From an uncultured Bacilli bacterium (GTDB taxonomy: Bacteria > Bacillota_I > Bacilli_A > RF39 > UBA660), in assembly GCA_947632375.1 (NCBI GenBank), contig CANRPF010000008.1, forward strand, positions 1 to 48,130: 48,130 bases of DNA. The letters are read 5' to 3'. Shown one piece after another: positions 1 through 45,267 of this stretch. The notes under the pieces are model-generated. The model was not told the origin of the DNA, ran no database searches, and saw only the letters and a program-made list of their open reading frames with translations. The translations under genes were made by a program, and so were the position numbers. Numbering within the stretch: position 1 is the first letter of the stretch; each line of letters opens with the position of its first letter.

Positions 1-152
1 ATTTCAAATACTCCTAAAGTTCCTGATATACTTTTATCTTCTGTATTGTATGTTACTCTAGTTACCCAATATGCATATGTTATTCCTATTAGTGCTAGTA
101 AGACTATTGCAATTCCCACTATACTTACTACTATTCTTTGATTTCTATTCAT
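1..152 (-). CDS. TasA/camelysin-like surface protein, 5' end only
   Basis: Only the N-terminal 50 or so residues lie in the window; the gene runs off the left edge. The start ATG is at 150-152 with a GAGGAG ribosome site a few bases upstream. The protein starts MNRNQRIVVSIVGIAIVLLA, a single hydrophobic signal/anchor ending in GITYAY, followed by SISGTLG. This is nearly the same N-terminus as the protein encoded at 41583-43322, and the upstream DNA is also near-identical, so the two genes are recent duplicates at least at their 5' ends. The ITYAY...S.SGTL pattern recalls SipW-dependent TasA/camelysin-type secreted proteins (family knowledge). Whether this copy also has the C-terminal domain of its paralogue cannot be seen here. 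Confidence 0.8.
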   Translation of the reverse strand, partial: MNRNQRIVVSIVGIAIVLLALIGITYAYWVTRVTYNTEDKSISGTLGVFE

Positions 153-190
153 TTTTACTCCTCTTTTCTTTTAATAAATATTTATTAATG

Positions 191-254
191 TCTTTTTTCA
201 ATGAAAAAAGACATTAATAAATATTTATTAATGTCTTTTTTCAATGAAAAAAGA
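191..254. repeat. 64-bp near-perfect palindrome in leader copy 1
   Basis: The element is self-complementary along its whole length except for the centre base of two small hairpin loops. It contains a 26-bp perfect palindrome (gacattaataa...ttattaatgtc) flanked by two copies of TCTTTTTTC-AAT-GAAAAAAGA. At copy 2 (43361-43424) both loops read ATT instead. That is exactly the reverse complement of the whole element. Confidence 0.9.
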
Positions 255-286
255 ATTGCGATAACTCTCCTGCTATCTTCATATTT

Positions 287-297
287 ATTATGTCATA
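287..297 (-). promoter_or_regulatory. Extended -10 promoter of leader copy 1
   Basis: Minus-strand TATGACATAAT fits TRTGn plus a -10 of CATAAT. It is conserved exactly in copy 2. No convincing -35 is seen. Predicted transcription start is near 280, giving a leader of about 130 nt that contains the palindromic hairpins. Confidence 0.5.
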
Positions 298-304
298 AAT
301 TGAG

Positions 305-334
305 AGAAAAATACCCCAACAGGTAGTTGGGGTT
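305..334 (-). terminator. Intrinsic terminator of sepF-divIVA
   Basis: Minus-strand stem CCCCAAC / GTTGGGG with a 5-nt loop, followed by TATTTTT. It lies 27 bases past the divIVA stop. Confidence 0.85.
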
Positions 335-5428: not shown

Positions 5429-6817
5429 TTATAATCTTATAACGTATGGTTTTTCTTTAGTACCATCAGCATTATTTTTTTCTAATTCAACTCCATTTAA
5501 AATAGTTATAACAGGTCTTAAATATATTTCATTGTTTTTATACCTAGTATTACTACTACCTACTTTAAAAAAGTTTTTATCTTTACCATCTTTATATACA
5601 TAAATATAATCTATATCATTATATCTTTGATATGCAGTTAATGTCCACCAATAATAATTAGTATCTAAATATCCAGAAGCTTTTTCTAATTTATTTCCAC
5701 CAGCTAAAACTAATTCATCTGCAGTTAAAGTTCCTATTTGACTATCAAAACTATTCGAACATTTTAAATTAGGTTCTGAATAAGATGATTCTAAATTTCT
5801 ATTATAAGAATCAAAGAAAAAATTTAATGTTTCCATATTAGGTAAAGATATTTCACTAGTATTAAATTGTTCTATAAGATAATCAGCTTCTATTTCTTTA
5901 CTAGTATAATATTCATTATTTTTCTTAGTTTCATCTTCTATACACCATGTATCTTTTTTTATTTTATTTAATATATTTTTATCTTTAAAATTACTTTTAA
6001 ACCAATTATTTAAACTAGTAAGTTTACCATCAAAACTAGAAGAAGAATCTATATGAGAATTATTATTATTAGTATCTATATTACATGGTGAAGTTGAATC
6101 TTCTAATACTAATTTAATACTTCCATCTCCTTCTATTCTAAATATTCTAAAACACATATTATTAAAATTTACATAATTATCTTTAACATTACCTCTATAA
6201 TAATAAGATTTACCCATATCATCTTCAGTAATACCTAAATAAGATTCGTTTTTTTTTAAAGAACTAATTTTATCTTTAGCTAATTCTAATTTAGTATTAC
6301 CATCATTCATCGCTTGATATATTACTTTATAAGATAATGTATCTTTATCTAATACTTGATCATTAAAATTATATTCTATATTAAATGTATATTCTTTAGT
6401 ATCAGGATTTTCTTTTAAAATACCTTTTACATTGACATATTCATCAGTATATTTAGAAGCATCTTCTAAATCATTAATAGATAAATAATTTTGTTTTTTC
6501 ATACCTTCTATACTTAAATTTAAACCAACTTTAGCACTTGTTATTAAATCTTTACAATTACTAAAATCTCTTGAGATATCTTTATATAAATCTTTAGAAA
6601 ATATAGTACTATTATCCATACTATCATCACAAGCTTTTATATCTTCCATAACTATATTAGCTGAATCTAATATAACTTTTTTATTTATTTCTGAAATAGA
6701 TTTTTTAGCATTATTAAATGCAGTAAAACCTCTTGATGCAATAATTGTTATTATTATACCTATTATAACTAATACTGCTAATAGTTCAATTAAAGTAAAT
6801 CCTTTATTATTTTTCAT
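5429..6817 (-). CDS. Prepilin-like protein with C-terminal surface domain
   Basis: A 462-residue protein beginning with a textbook type IV prepilin leader: short basic peptide MKNNKG, then FTLIELLAVLVIIGIIITII, with the Gly/Phe cleavage site and Glu at +5. Residues 30-195 are a soluble region with no family I can name. From about residue 200 the protein carries the domain also seen at 28562-29893 and 41583-43322: SYYYRGNVKDNYVNFNN, FRIFRIEGDGSIKL, GTLTADELVLAG, YLRPVITI and DGTKEKPYVI. It is therefore predicted to be surface-exposed after processing by a prepilin peptidase. No pilus assembly genes are in the window. It overlaps queH by 11 bases, so it is co-translated within an envelope operon. 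Confidence 0.85.
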   Translation of the reverse strand: MKNNKGFTLIELLAVLVIIGIIITIIASRGFTAFNNAKKSISEINKKVILDSANIVMEDIKACDDSMDNSTIFSKDLYKDISRDFSNCKDLITSAKVGLNLSIEGMKKQNYLSINDLEDASKYTDEYVNVKGILKENPDTKEYTFNIEYNFNDQVLDKDTLSYKVIYQAMNDGNTKLELAKDKISSLKKNESYLGITEDDMGKSYYYRGNVKDNYVNFNNMCFRIFRIEGDGSIKLVLEDSTSPCNIDTNNNNSHIDSSSSFDGKLTSLNNWFKSNFKDKNILNKIKKDTWCIEDETKKNNEYYTSKEIEADYLIEQFNTSEISLPNMETLNFFFDSYNRNLESSYSEPNLKCSNSFDSQIGTLTADELVLAGGNKLEKASGYLDTNYYWWTLTAYQRYNDIDYIYVYKDGKDKNFFKVGSSNTRYKNNEIYLRPVITILNGVELEKNNADGTKEKPYVIRL

Positions 6818-41445: not shown

Positions 41446-41469
41446 TTTCAAAAAAATTATTTTCATATA

Positions 41470-41502
41470 AAAAAATCGTATAAAAAGTTATACGATTTAA
41501 AA
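41470..41502 (-). terminator. Intrinsic terminator upstream of hrcA promoter
   Basis: Minus-strand stem AAATCGTATAA / TTATACGATTT around CTTTT, followed by T-run. It ends the transcript of the surface-protein gene at 41583-43322. Confidence 0.85.
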
Positions 41503-41522
41503 AACTATTTTAGGTTAATCTA

Positions 41523-41561
41523 AGGAGTACTTATAATGAATAGAAAAGTTATAAGTATTCC
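41523..41561. repeat. Inverted repeat downstream of surface-protein gene
   Basis: GGAGTACTTATAA and TTATAAGTATTCC form a 13-bp imperfect stem (one mismatch) around a 13-base loop. No T-run follows on either strand. Confidence 0.6.
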
Positions 41562-41582
41562 TACACCAAAATAATTTGATGC

Positions 41583-43322
41583 CTATTTAACTATATAAGG
41601 ATCAGACTTAGTTCCTTGACCTGTTACTGTTACATTAGATGCAAGAACAATAACAGGGCGCAAAGAAAAGTAACTTGAATATACATTTGCTCCAGAAATA
41701 TATCCCTCAACAGAAAACGCATTATCTTGATTACCATATCTATAATCAAGAGACATAGTTAAATAACTATAATCTGGTATATATAAATAATAATTATTAT
41801 TTATTATATTCTGATATGAATCTCCATCTCCATGTGTTTTAGCACCTGCTAATGCCACTTCATCTGCTGTTAATGCTCCTATATAACTTTTAAATCCATT
41901 TGTTTTTGATAATAAACTTACTCCTCTTGTTGTTCCATATCCATTTAATCTTTGCCCTGCTTCATAATATGAATAAGAACTTTTTTTATATGTATTTGTT
42001 GTACTTCCTAAATACCATGTTTCTTCTTTTAACTTATCTTTTACATTTTTAAAATTCTCATTAAACCAAGTGTCAAATTTATTTTTCATGCATGTACCTG
42101 AATTCGATGTACAATTTAAATAATCAGCTTTATTATTAGAATATCCTGTTCCATTATATCCATAAGATCCTTCTCCAATAAAAGCCCATCCTTCTCCATG
42201 ACTTCTTTCACATGGCGAATAAGCATCATATAATGTAATTTTAGTACTTCCATCTCCTTGGATACGTACTATCCTCCAGCACATATTATTAAATGTCAAA
42301 TAATTATCTTCTATTTCACCTCTATAATAATAAGAAGTTCCGTATAAATCAGATATTTGACTTAATGTACTTTCTTTGCTTTCATACACAATTTCATGTC
42401 TTTTTAATGTTAATTTATCTTTTTTTGCATCTATTACTTCAAATATTTCGCTAGTTGTACCCCAAGACATATTGTAAAAGGTCATATATTTCCCATTTAA
42501 ATTACTGTAAGAAGAATTATAACTACTTACCGTATCATCTATTAAACTTAAGCTTGTCGATTGTGTTGATTTTGAATATGAATCAGCATAAGCTAAACCA
42601 TAATCTTGAGGAACAAACGTAAATTCTTCAGATTCTTTTTCAATACAATTAAAGTTATGACTTACATTAAGGGCAGGTTCTGTTAATGGTTTTTCTCTAA
42701 AAAAAGTTTCTCCTGTTGTTTCTCCTGTTGCATTTTTTGCTTGAGTAAGTACTACAGTCTTTATTGGCTGTCCAAATTCTTTACCATCCATTATATTTAC
42801 TTTAGCACTGAATGTTGCGCCCATATCATCTGATTGATTCACATTTTCTAAATTTTTATAGGTTATTGTTAATGTATATGAATGTGTTACAGTTGGTTCT
42901 ATTGTGTTTAAAATTATTGAACCATTTGTTGAAGGAAATGCTATATTATCAACTCCATTACATGGATTATTATCATCGCTTGAACACTCTAACGTATAAA
43001 CCAAATCTTCTTTTCTTGTTAACGTATTAGTCAAGTTCTCAAATACTACTGCATAATTTTCTACTTTAACTGAACCTGTATTTTTAACTGTAAATTCTTT
43101 TGGTGTTAATGTTGTATTTGGCATAATTGGATCTGTTGGTGCAATAACTCCATTACCATCTCCATATGTTAACTCTAAATCTGCTAATGTTCCTGATATA
43201 CTTGTTGAAGTTGAATTACCTATTATCTTTGTTAAGAAATAAGCGTATGTTATTCCTATCAGTGCTAACGTCACAATTATTATCCCTATTATACTTACTA
43301 CTATTCTTTGATTTCTATTCAT
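41583..43322 (-). CDS. Large TasA-like surface protein with C-terminal domain
   Basis: 579 residues. The N-terminus is MNRNQRIVVSIIGIIIVTLA...GITYAYFLTK, then SISGTLADLEL, nearly identical to the gene at 1-152. Residues 45-180 are a TasA/camelysin-like region (FTVKNTGSVKVENYAVVFEN ... DMGATFSAKVNIMDG). A Ser/Thr-rich linker follows. From about residue 330 comes the shared C-terminal domain: TSYYYRGEIEDNYLTFNNMC, WRIVRIQGDGSTKITLY, YIGALTADEVALAG, FSLRPVIVLASNV and GQGTKSDPYIV. Several Cys residues could form disulfides outside the cell. It is transcribed from leader copy 2 and ends before a terminator at 41470-41502. Confidence 0.85.
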   Translation of the reverse strand: MNRNQRIVVSIIGIIIVTLALIGITYAYFLTKIIGNSTSTSISGTLADLELTYGDGNGVIAPTDPIMPNTTLTPKEFTVKNTGSVKVENYAVVFENLTNTLTRKEDLVYTLECSSDDNNPCNGVDNIAFPSTNGSIILNTIEPTVTHSYTLTITYKNLENVNQSDDMGATFSAKVNIMDGKEFGQPIKTVVLTQAKNATGETTGETFFREKPLTEPALNVSHNFNCIEKESEEFTFVPQDYGLAYADSYSKSTQSTSLSLIDDTVSSYNSSYSNLNGKYMTFYNMSWGTTSEIFEVIDAKKDKLTLKRHEIVYESKESTLSQISDLYGTSYYYRGEIEDNYLTFNNMCWRIVRIQGDGSTKITLYDAYSPCERSHGEGWAFIGEGSYGYNGTGYSNNKADYLNCTSNSGTCMKNKFDTWFNENFKNVKDKLKEETWYLGSTTNTYKKSSYSYYEAGQRLNGYGTTRGVSLLSKTNGFKSYIGALTADEVALAGAKTHGDGDSYQNIINNNYYLYIPDYSYLTMSLDYRYGNQDNAFSVEGYISGANVYSSYFSLRPVIVLASNVTVTGQGTKSDPYIVK

Positions 43323-43360
43323 TCTTACTCCTCTTTTCTTTTAATAAATATTTATTAATG

Positions 43361-43424
43361 TCTTTTTTCATTGAAAAAAGACATTAATAAATATTTATTA
43401 ATGTCTTTTTTCATTGAAAAAAGA
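43361..43424. repeat. 64-bp near-perfect palindrome in leader copy 2
   Basis: Same element as 191-254, but both loop triplets read ATT instead of AAT, so the sequence equals the reverse complement of copy 1 over all 64 bases. Confidence 0.9.
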
Positions 43425-43454
43425 ATTGCGATAACTCTTGCTATCTTCATACTT

Positions 43455-43465
43455 ATTATGTCATA
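43455..43465 (-). promoter_or_regulatory. Extended -10 promoter of leader copy 2
   Basis: TATGACATAAT on the minus strand, identical to copy 1 at 287-297. The transcript would start near 43448. Confidence 0.5.
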
Positions 43466-43473
43466 AATTGGAA

Positions 43474-43500
43474 TAAAAATACCCCAACAGGTAGTTGGGG
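43474..43500 (-). terminator. Intrinsic terminator of thrS
   Basis: CCCCAAC / GTTGGGG stem followed by TATTTTTAT on the minus strand, starting next to the thrS stop. Same stem sequence as at 305-334. Confidence 0.85.
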
Positions 43501-45267
43501 TTAATTTATATTATTGTTTTTTTCTAGTATAGAAGTATTTAATTTATTTATAAATTCTTCTTTAGGTAAAGTTATGGTTTCTTCGCTTCCATATACTCTA
43601 TAAGATATTTCATTATTATCAGTTTCTCTTTGACCTAGTATTAATGTAATTGGTATTTTTTTAAGTACCGATTCTCTCATTCTATATCCTACTTTTTCTT
43701 CTCTATCATCTAATTTAACTCTTATATTATTTTCTTTTAATAGATTAAATATTTCTTTTGAGTATTCTAAGTGAAAGTTGTTATTAACAGGCAATATATT
43801 TACTTCTGTAGGTGATAGCCATAATGGTAATGCTCCTTTAGTTTCTTCTAGGTAGTATGCAATAAATCTATCTAGACTACCAAATACTGCTCTATGTAAT
43901 ACTACAGGTGTTTTTCTTTCTCCATCTTTATCTACATATGTTAAGTCAAATTTCATTGGTAAACAGAAATCTAATTGACAAGTAGATAATGTGTATTCTG
44001 GTCCTACAGCAGGTTTTACTTGTACGTCTAATTTAGGTCCATAGAATGCTGCTTCTCCTATTTTTTCTGTATATTTTATACCTATATTATCTAATACTTT
44101 TCTTAGTATATTTTCTGCATTTTCCCACATTTTATCATCTTGATAATATTTTATTTTATCTTCTTTGTCTCTTAGTGATAATTCAAAATGATAATTTGTT
44201 ATATTTAGTTCTTTATATACTTCTAATATTAAGTTTACTACTGATGAGAATTCTTCTTCTATTTGTTCTGGTGTTACGAATAAATGTGCATCATTTTGAC
44301 AAAATGTTCTTACTCTTTCTATTCCTTTTAATGCACCACTAGCTTCAAATCTACAGTCTCTTGCTATTTCTCCTATTCTAATAGGTAAGTCTCTATATGA
44401 GTGTATTTCGTTTGAATAAATCATCATATGATGAGGACAATTCATTGGTCTTAGAACAAATTCTTCTCCTTCAACTTCCATTTTTGGAAACATATTATCT
44501 TTATAGTGATCCCAATGTCCTGAAGTTTTATATAATTCTACATTTCCTAATGGTGGTGTTAATACATGAAGATAACCTAATTTTTTTTCTTTTTCTTTTA
44601 TATAATTTTCTAATAATTCCCAAATTATATATCCATTTGGTAAGTACATTGGTAATCCCTTACCTACTAAATCATGAGTCATAAATATACCTAAATCTTT
44701 ACCTATTTTTCTATGATCTCTTTGTTTAGCTTCTTCTAACTGTTGTATATGTTCATTTAATTCTTCTTCTGTTTTAAAACATACTCCATATATTCTTTGT
44801 AACATTTTATTATTAGAGTCCCCTTTAAAGTAAGCTCCACTAAATTTTAATAATTTAAAATTTTTACATTCTTTAACTGTATCTACATGTGGCCCTCTAC
44901 AAAGATCTGTAAAATCTCCTTGAGTATAAGTTGATATTACTGTATCTTTTTCATCCATACGATTAATTAAATCTAATTTATATGGATCATCTTTAAACAT
45001 TTCTAATGCTTCTTTTTTTGATATTTCATTTCTAACTATTCTTTTACCATCTTTCGCTATTTTTTTCATTTCACGAGAGATATTATCTAAATCTTCATCA
45101 GTTAGTGTAACACCCCCTAAATCTATATCGTAATAAAAACCATCTTCTATTACAGGTCCTACCCAAAATTTAGCATTTGGATATAAATGTTTTACAGCTT
45201 GTGCCATCATATGAGCACAACTATGATTTAATTTATTTAAATATTCATCTTCTTTTATATTTATCAT
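43501..45267 (-). CDS. thrS: Threonyl-tRNA synthetase lacking the TGS domain
   Basis: A 588-residue class II synthetase. It begins directly with the editing domain (LNHSCAHMMAQAVKHLYP near residue 12) and lacks the usual N-terminal TGS domain of about 60 residues. The editing site also has DLCRGPHV. The catalytic core has RPMNCPHHMM (zinc Cys and motif), RIGEIARDCRFEASGALKGI, RVRTFCQNDAHLF and VVLHRAVFGSLDRF. The C-terminal anticodon-binding domain is intact (VNILPVNNNFHLEY, REEKVGYRMRES). Ribosome site AGGAGG. It lies downstream of a T-box leader and an MBL-fold gene 1 base away. Confidence 0.97.
   Translation of the reverse strand: MINIKEDEYLNKLNHSCAHMMAQAVKHLYPNAKFWVGPVIEDGFYYDIDLGGVTLTDEDLDNISREMKKIAKDGKRIVRNEISKKEALEMFKDDPYKLDLINRMDEKDTVISTYTQGDFTDLCRGPHVDTVKECKNFKLLKFSGAYFKGDSNNKMLQRIYGVCFKTEEELNEHIQQLEEAKQRDHRKIGKDLGIFMTHDLVGKGLPMYLPNGYIIWELLENYIKEKEKKLGYLHVLTPPLGNVELYKTSGHWDHYKDNMFPKMEVEGEEFVLRPMNCPHHMMIYSNEIHSYRDLPIRIGEIARDCRFEASGALKGIERVRTFCQNDAHLFVTPEQIEEEFSSVVNLILEVYKELNITNYHFELSLRDKEDKIKYYQDDKMWENAENILRKVLDNIGIKYTEKIGEAAFYGPKLDVQVKPAVGPEYTLSTCQLDFCLPMKFDLTYVDKDGERKTPVVLHRAVFGSLDRFIAYYLEETKGALPLWLSPTEVNILPVNNNFHLEYSKEIFNLLKENNIRVKLDDREEKVGYRMRESVLKKIPITLILGQRETDNNEISYRVYGSEETITLPKEEFINKLNTSILEKNNNIN

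Follow-up and report, generated by a model that had tools for sequence, protein, structure and literature searches.

A shared 5′/3′ expression cassette around some 30 surface genes of one uncultured gut Bacilli species

A repeated 5′ unit and the surface proteins behind it

The window analysed here is an entire contig (C8, 48,130 nucleotides) of the source genome G000, an assembly of 2.07 Mb in 132 contigs. Two near-identical stretches of about 180 bp, 43 kb apart, had been pointed out in the initial annotation and are real: positions 4–268 align with 43174–43438 at 84% identity, and 267–334 with 43435–43502 at 93%. Read in gene orientation, each stretch is made up of a terminator, 4–5 variable nucleotides, an extended −10 promoter, a 5′ hairpin, palindromes, a ribosome site, the start codon and codons 1–11, which supports the original description of the unit as terminator, promoter, leader and N-terminus. 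The features of both copies, and of the surface gene behind the second, are as follows.

307–332, minus strand: unit 1 intrinsic terminator, CCCCAACTACCTGTTGGGGTATTTTT, 28 nt past the divIVA stop codon
285–300, minus strand: unit 1 extended −10 promoter, ATTTATGACATAATAA, predicted by consensus match only
260–277, minus strand: unit 1 hairpin GATAGC..GTTATC at the predicted mRNA 5′ end; stem kept, loop variable
171–254, minus strand: unit 1 alternating palindromes, two 43-nt units (TCTTTTTTCAWTGAAAAAAGA, ATTAATAAATATTTATTAAT); 0 broken pairs in 24 copies
155–165, minus strand: unit 1 ribosome-binding site, AAGAGGAGTAA
3–152 (start codon 150–152), minus strand: start of the unit 1 surface gene, MNRNQRIVVSIVGIAIVLLALIGITYAYW..., truncated by the contig end
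43475–43500, minus strand: unit 2 terminator, abutting the thrS stop codon (gap 0)
43453–43468, minus strand: unit 2 extended −10 promoter, predicted by consensus match
43430–43445, minus strand: unit 2 5′ hairpin
43341–43424, minus strand: unit 2 alternating palindromes
43325–43335, minus strand: unit 2 ribosome-binding site, predicted partner of the 3′ arm of the 3′UTR hairpin
43290–43322 (start codon 43320–43322), minus strand: unit 2 codons 1–11, third positions invariant in 17 genes; predicted target of the 3′UTR hairpin
41583–43322, minus strand: surface protein gene, 579 aa, with a SipW-type signal peptide and a TasA/camelysin-like N-terminal part
41504–41582, minus strand: 3′UTR element directly after the stop codon; 24 genomic copies
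41523–41562, minus strand: anti-start hairpin, AGGAATACTTATAA CTTTTCTATTCA TTATAAGTACTCCT; predicted pairing
41535–41546, minus strand: TTTCTATTCATT, perfectly reverse-complementary to AATGAATAGAAA (the start codon plus the codons after it)
41469–41498, minus strand: intrinsic terminator of the surface gene; stem sequence differs among copies

The terminator of the unit follows the consensus CCCCAACTA...GGGGTATTTTT, and the spacer that separates it from the promoter differs among copies (CTCTC in unit 1). Both window copies share the extended −10 sequence TATGACATAAT, with no clear −35, and the fixed ribosome site AAAAGAAAAGAGGAG leads into the start codon. The leader RNA is long, AU-rich and made up of hairpins, and its predicted fold has a z-score of −9.9.

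The surface proteins consist of an N-terminal part, a variable middle and a conserved C-terminus. With a cutoff of E 0.01, Pfam Peptidase_M73 recognises 16 of 23 family members, the lowest E being 1.9e-7; the protein in the window is not among them, and a PDB search reached TasA itself only at E 0.8. An AlphaFold2 model of the window protein is confident, multi-domain and beta-rich (mean pLDDT 84), and a fold search with it gave no convincing whole-chain match in the PDB. The family resembles TasA and camelysin of Bacillus in its SipW-type signal peptide and, in most members, its M73-like N-terminal part, but differs in the long variable middle, the conserved C-terminus, the number of paralogues (about 30, against one to three) and the lack of a close fold match. 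Elsewhere in the window, 5429–6817 joins a prepilin-type N-terminus (N_methyl) to the C-terminal domain of these proteins.

Copies of the unit across the genome and exchange between them

Copy numbers were obtained by searching the contigs of G000. The whole-genome search for which the initial annotation had called, with positions 150–340 as query, returned 24 complete and five contig-end leader copies, plus fragments, and so at least 29 units. Among the 29 parsed units, 24 continue into a gene and five end at or near contig ends; downstream of the leader, where assembled, there is invariably a TasA/SipW-type surface gene or its operon. Two-gene surface operons with one leader each lie at L065 (4245–4997 + 2663–4240) and L066 (2393–3943 + ~813–2370), and the C29 operon has its 3′ element behind the second gene. 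Tandem arrays hold a second repeat, placed behind a surface gene and ahead of the leader that follows (G000 C9:36820+, C29:17928−, C29:488−, C41:11632+ and C44:12838−); it encodes a hydrophobic peptide of 22–25 aa (MVEKLFYQLIILFLLYLIFNLI), has a good ribosome site, is followed by a hairpin and resembles a type I toxin gene.

Neither the leader nor the 3′ element described below turned up in a DNA search of 59 relatives, which returned only short AT-rich matches to the leader, or in a search of 39 relatives with RNA models. Its exact motif had no match in viral contigs or in other genome contigs, and neither the leader nor the 3′ element matched Rfam above gathering score at the window and five other loci. 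The listed contamination of G000 is 9%, and its 2.07 Mb compare with 1.0–1.4 Mb in sister genomes; the excess may come partly from the surface-gene family or from foreign contigs.

A search of G000 with a pattern for the terminator gave 33 matches, against 0 for a control pattern; with the strong leader fold, this excludes a chance resemblance. Of the 30 genomic copies of the terminator motif, 29 carry the leader, which rules out a terminator in common use in this genome. At 18 loci the unit begins 0–11 nt past the stop codon of a co-directional gene. Judged by their protein sequences, from which we took the gene names, these upstream neighbours are mostly unrelated core genes (thrS, leuS, lon, eno (enolase)), and one is a surface gene. 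The initial annotation had assigned the terminator to the gene upstream, divIVA in one case and thrS in the other. That assignment does not hold: since the leader accompanies 29 of 30 copies and the terminator is still present at two loci where the upstream gene is divergent, it belongs to the unit. The unit thus supplies or replaces its neighbour's terminator and has not copied it. A comparison with 'empty sites' in sister species yielded no comparable sites, the neighbours of hrcA and divIVA being different or cut by contig ends. The only other copy of terminator and promoter (L206; G000 C11:28019–28371) stands ahead of a gene for a Cro/C1-type regulator (83 aa) with a remnant of the 3′ element (GCATCAAATTATTTTTGGTGTAGGGAA) behind it, as in a cassette holding a regulator.

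Leaders and genes have diverged to different degrees. Leader copies share 93% identity on average over pairs of 20 copies, or about 7% divergence, whereas the genes approach saturation at four-fold sites (0.37–0.53 differences; 0.42 in the signal peptide). Leader divergence is 5–10% at a gene divergence of 18% as at 45% (Spearman −0.03). Since it does not track gene divergence and the four-fold sites are near saturation, simple whole-gene duplication, which the initial annotation had set against its own reading, is excluded. Through codon 11, all 17 of 17 genes agree at every third codon position, against 47% at codon 12; the homology, first described as fading within the signal peptide, has a sharp edge at codon 11/12.

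Leader alleles are uncorrelated with gene distance (Mantel r = −0.14, p = 0.91), whereas distances in the signal peptide and in the remaining N-domain are linked (r = 0.785). Identical spacer alleles form 34 pairs against 6 expected, which indicates inheritance as blocks, and they are unlinked to the terminator loop and the hairpin loop 10–30 nt away. Assembly chimeras are unlikely to have caused this shuffling in the 5′ part of the leader, because the variable sites span about 60 nt and fall inside single reads; linkage across the long palindromes is less safe. All leader-bearing genes but one fall, in a tree built from N-terminal domains, into a clade (support 89/94) that this species has to itself. 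The exception, C2b (C2:70241–70996), groups at 100/99 with genes that lie next to ftsE, under ordinary promoters, in three sister species. C2b lies behind leuS and under the leader, it opens with the family's ATGAATAGAAA, and G000 retains its own ftsE-linked gene on C47, a pattern that supports capture of the leader by a gene of another orthologous group. The exchange of cassettes among surface genes that the initial annotation had proposed is supported by both the unlinked alleles and the C2b capture, and the simplest reading is that frequent short-tract exchange between leader copies, together with selection, has shaped them. The annotation's further suggestion of a special expression site is not supported: with a promoter in every copy, transfer of a gene from one copy to another would not turn on its expression.

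The palindromes are near-invariant in sequence as well as in pairing. None of the 43 predicted leader pairs is broken in 24 aligned copies, and two-sided changes occur at three. Changes are concerted across both tandem units and both arms (T-run length, a central W base, C-to-T); in the copy at C29:268 the T runs are of unequal length. The central W base is identical in both palindromes of a copy, as at 171–254 and 43341–43424 in the window (CAATG or CATTG). Both forms are frequent, as might be seen if the whole block were inverted or copied anew. Two copies near contig ends, C100:3934 and C32:17993, have one 43-nt unit instead of two, possibly through variation in unit number or an assembly effect.

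A conserved 3′UTR element and its predicted pairing with gene starts

Immediately behind the stop codon of most leader genes lies GCATCAAATTATTTTGGTGT, followed by a hairpin, a short palindrome and a terminator. A covariance model of this 3′ element picked out 24 copies in G000 and had no match in 39 relatives; several leader genes are without it (C17a, C34, C29c and C21). That a shared 5′/3′ expression cassette surrounds about 30 surface genes is certain. It serves surface genes of the SipW/TasA type in a single uncultured Bacilli species from the gut, and the repeat that was first noticed is its 5′ half. The conserved 3′ end, which the initial annotation had not seen, is a stronger clue to function than the leader.

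The hairpin loop, CTTTTCTATTCA, is complementary to the start region, its TTTCTATTCATT matching AATGAATAGAAA. For the main form, predictions pair the 5′ arm with TAAGTAT of codons 9–11 and the 3′ arm with the Shine–Dalgarno sequence. The hairpin–start duplex was predicted at −28.1 and −30.9 kcal/mol, where shuffles gave −15.7 and −14.7 and none of 1000 went as low. No other gene start (0/192) attains the family-mean duplex energy, the best for the main form being −23.4, and no decoy 3′ 42-mer (0/400) attains −28, the best being −20.4. The longest perfect match against the start region alone has P = 0.008. Among loci with both ends, 14 of 16 give duplexes of −18 to −31 kcal/mol, and the two with another start give −12. 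In the variant C44 the stem is wholly different and the loop is kept; its pairing is predicted at −18.1 (P 0.013), and the new stem arm ACTATTC is complementary to codons 6–8. The end of the predicted target coincides with the end of silent-site invariance at codon 11.

Co-folding of the complete 5′ and 3′ regions gave −17.1 kcal/mol, not better than shuffled 3′UTRs (P 0.25); this value was equalled by 5 of 100 decoy 3′ regions and 0 of 96 decoy starts. At C9:19347 and C47:12695 the loop is kept and the start differs (ATGACAAGAG), so that pairing in cis fails there. We infer pairing strongly for the hairpin itself; given the weak co-fold, the two genes with another start and the missing 3′ elements, this is not proof of function. 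Read on its opposite strand, the 3′ element looks like a ribosome site plus ATGAATAGAAAA and may accordingly descend from an inverted copy of the start. A conserved peptide encoded antisense to the 3′UTR was ruled out, as T-run length shifts the frame. The family gene at G000 C9:28–1611 is interrupted internally by a TAG stop and retains the 3′ element behind it, as a decaying cassette would.

Sister species carry leaders of their own. In G003 a leader of unrelated sequence precedes at least five genes, and TTCTATTTATGAAA is conserved in all five leaders, where it complements TTTCATGAATAGAA at the start of the respective gene (P 0.006 versus shuffles); in the predicted fold of one of them, the start codon is buried. 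A sixth gene, with the start ATGAATCGTAG, is without TTCTATTTATGAAA. G001 has a third leader type in two copies. Species-specific structured leaders thus recur, with a putative anti-start element in two of the species.

The closest mechanism is the 5′–3′UTR pairing of icaR, proven in Staphylococcus aureus and predicted here. A motif in the icaR 3′UTR, complementary to the gene's own ribosome-binding region, prevents initiation and leaves the mRNA open to attack by RNase III (PMC3868564). Here too, at 14 of 16 loci, the 3′UTR is complementary to the ribosome-binding region of its own mRNA. However, icaR is a single gene whose 7-nt anti-Shine–Dalgarno motif was proven by mutation (PMC3868564), whereas about 24 genes are concerned here, the hairpin spans the Shine–Dalgarno sequence, the start codon and codons 9–11, its pairing is predicted only, and pairing in trans is possible.

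The closest kind of gene family is vlhA (pMGA) of Mycoplasma gallisepticum, and the control element differs. Both families comprise many surface paralogues, each with a near-identical, species-specific upstream region and its own promoter (29 here). In vlhA a GAA repeat lies about 40 nt upstream of the transcription start, between flanks reported to be palindrome-free (PMC6258824); no variable GAA tract of this type precedes the promoter here, its place being taken by the terminator and the 4–5-nt spacer. The variable part lies in the leader instead, and the unit adds an upstream terminator and a 3′UTR. VlhA of M. synoviae, an example of the promoter-switch families of mycoplasmas, relies on a single promoter and a reservoir of pseudogenes (PMC4206340); its genes share their 5′ ends, as here, but with one promoter as against 29 promoter-bearing copies.

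Possible functions of the cassette

We give about an even chance to an insulated expression cassette with antisense translational control, the control part being predicted from sequence. The cassette's own upstream terminator insulates it, and the 5′ hairpins would lend the mRNA stability and leave its ribosome site accessible. The 3′UTR hairpin would act as an antisense arm, with the loop on the start codon, the 5′ arm on codons 9–11 and the 3′ arm on the Shine–Dalgarno sequence; pairing, whether in cis or in trans with any mRNA of the family, would block initiation or create a substrate for RNase III. Selection at both ends and frequent exchange would keep the cassettes alike while the enclosed genes diverge. 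Such pairing would explain why codons 1–11 are fixed even at silent positions, an invariance that could also come from translation initiation alone.

It is possible, if somewhat unlikely, that the leader serves strong, stable expression only and that the 3′ hairpin is stabilising or terminator-linked, its complementarity to the start being a functionless relic of an inverted start copy. The unbroken leader hairpins in 24 copies, the likeness of the element's antisense strand to a ribosome site plus MNRK, and the weak statistics of the full co-fold all fit this account, but it does not readily accommodate a C44 hairpin that changed its stem and retained its loop, an anti-start element independently retained by G003 in its 5′ leader, or a pairing that covers exactly the stretch of silent-site invariance. 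We consider improbable a use of the repeated ends as recombination substrates for surface (antigenic) variation, with whole reading frames swapped between cassettes. Leader alleles that are unlinked to genes and to each other, despite the excess of identical spacer pairs (34 against 6), would be expected of it, as would a cassette holding a gene from another orthologous group. Against it, a promoter on all 29 units leaves no single expression site, of the kind in which silent promoterless copies surround one promoter copy; the signal peptide stays linked to the remaining N-domain; and one assembly only offers no within-strain evidence of switching. More doubtful still is a role of the palindromes as DNA, either as operators through which a protein controls the whole regulon or as recombinase sites for inversion. 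They are perfect and alternating, with centres about 21.5 bp apart and near-invariant sequence, and the two central W bases never differ within a copy, as expected of inversion or unit duplication; yet they sit between promoter and ribosome site rather than across the promoter, the W alternation alters no signal, and no recombinase gene is linked to them.

Antisense control, if it acted in trans, might go further. The approximately 24 mRNAs with the element could pair with the starts of nearly all others, an all-against-all network that would limit or select which of about 30 proteins are translated without DNA rearrangement, and the sister species would have rebuilt the same logic with an unrelated leader and the anti-start element in the 5′ leader. 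We regard this extension as unlikely.

The ends of the cassette stay alike while the inner genes diverge, and the cassette supplies terminators to core genes, among them thrS, leuS and lon. If the antisense arm works, the family would present a family-wide version of a mechanism known from single mRNAs. RNA alone could then coordinate, or choose among, dozens of surface proteins, and surface variation would become testable with reporters in gut Bacilli that are not yet culturable.
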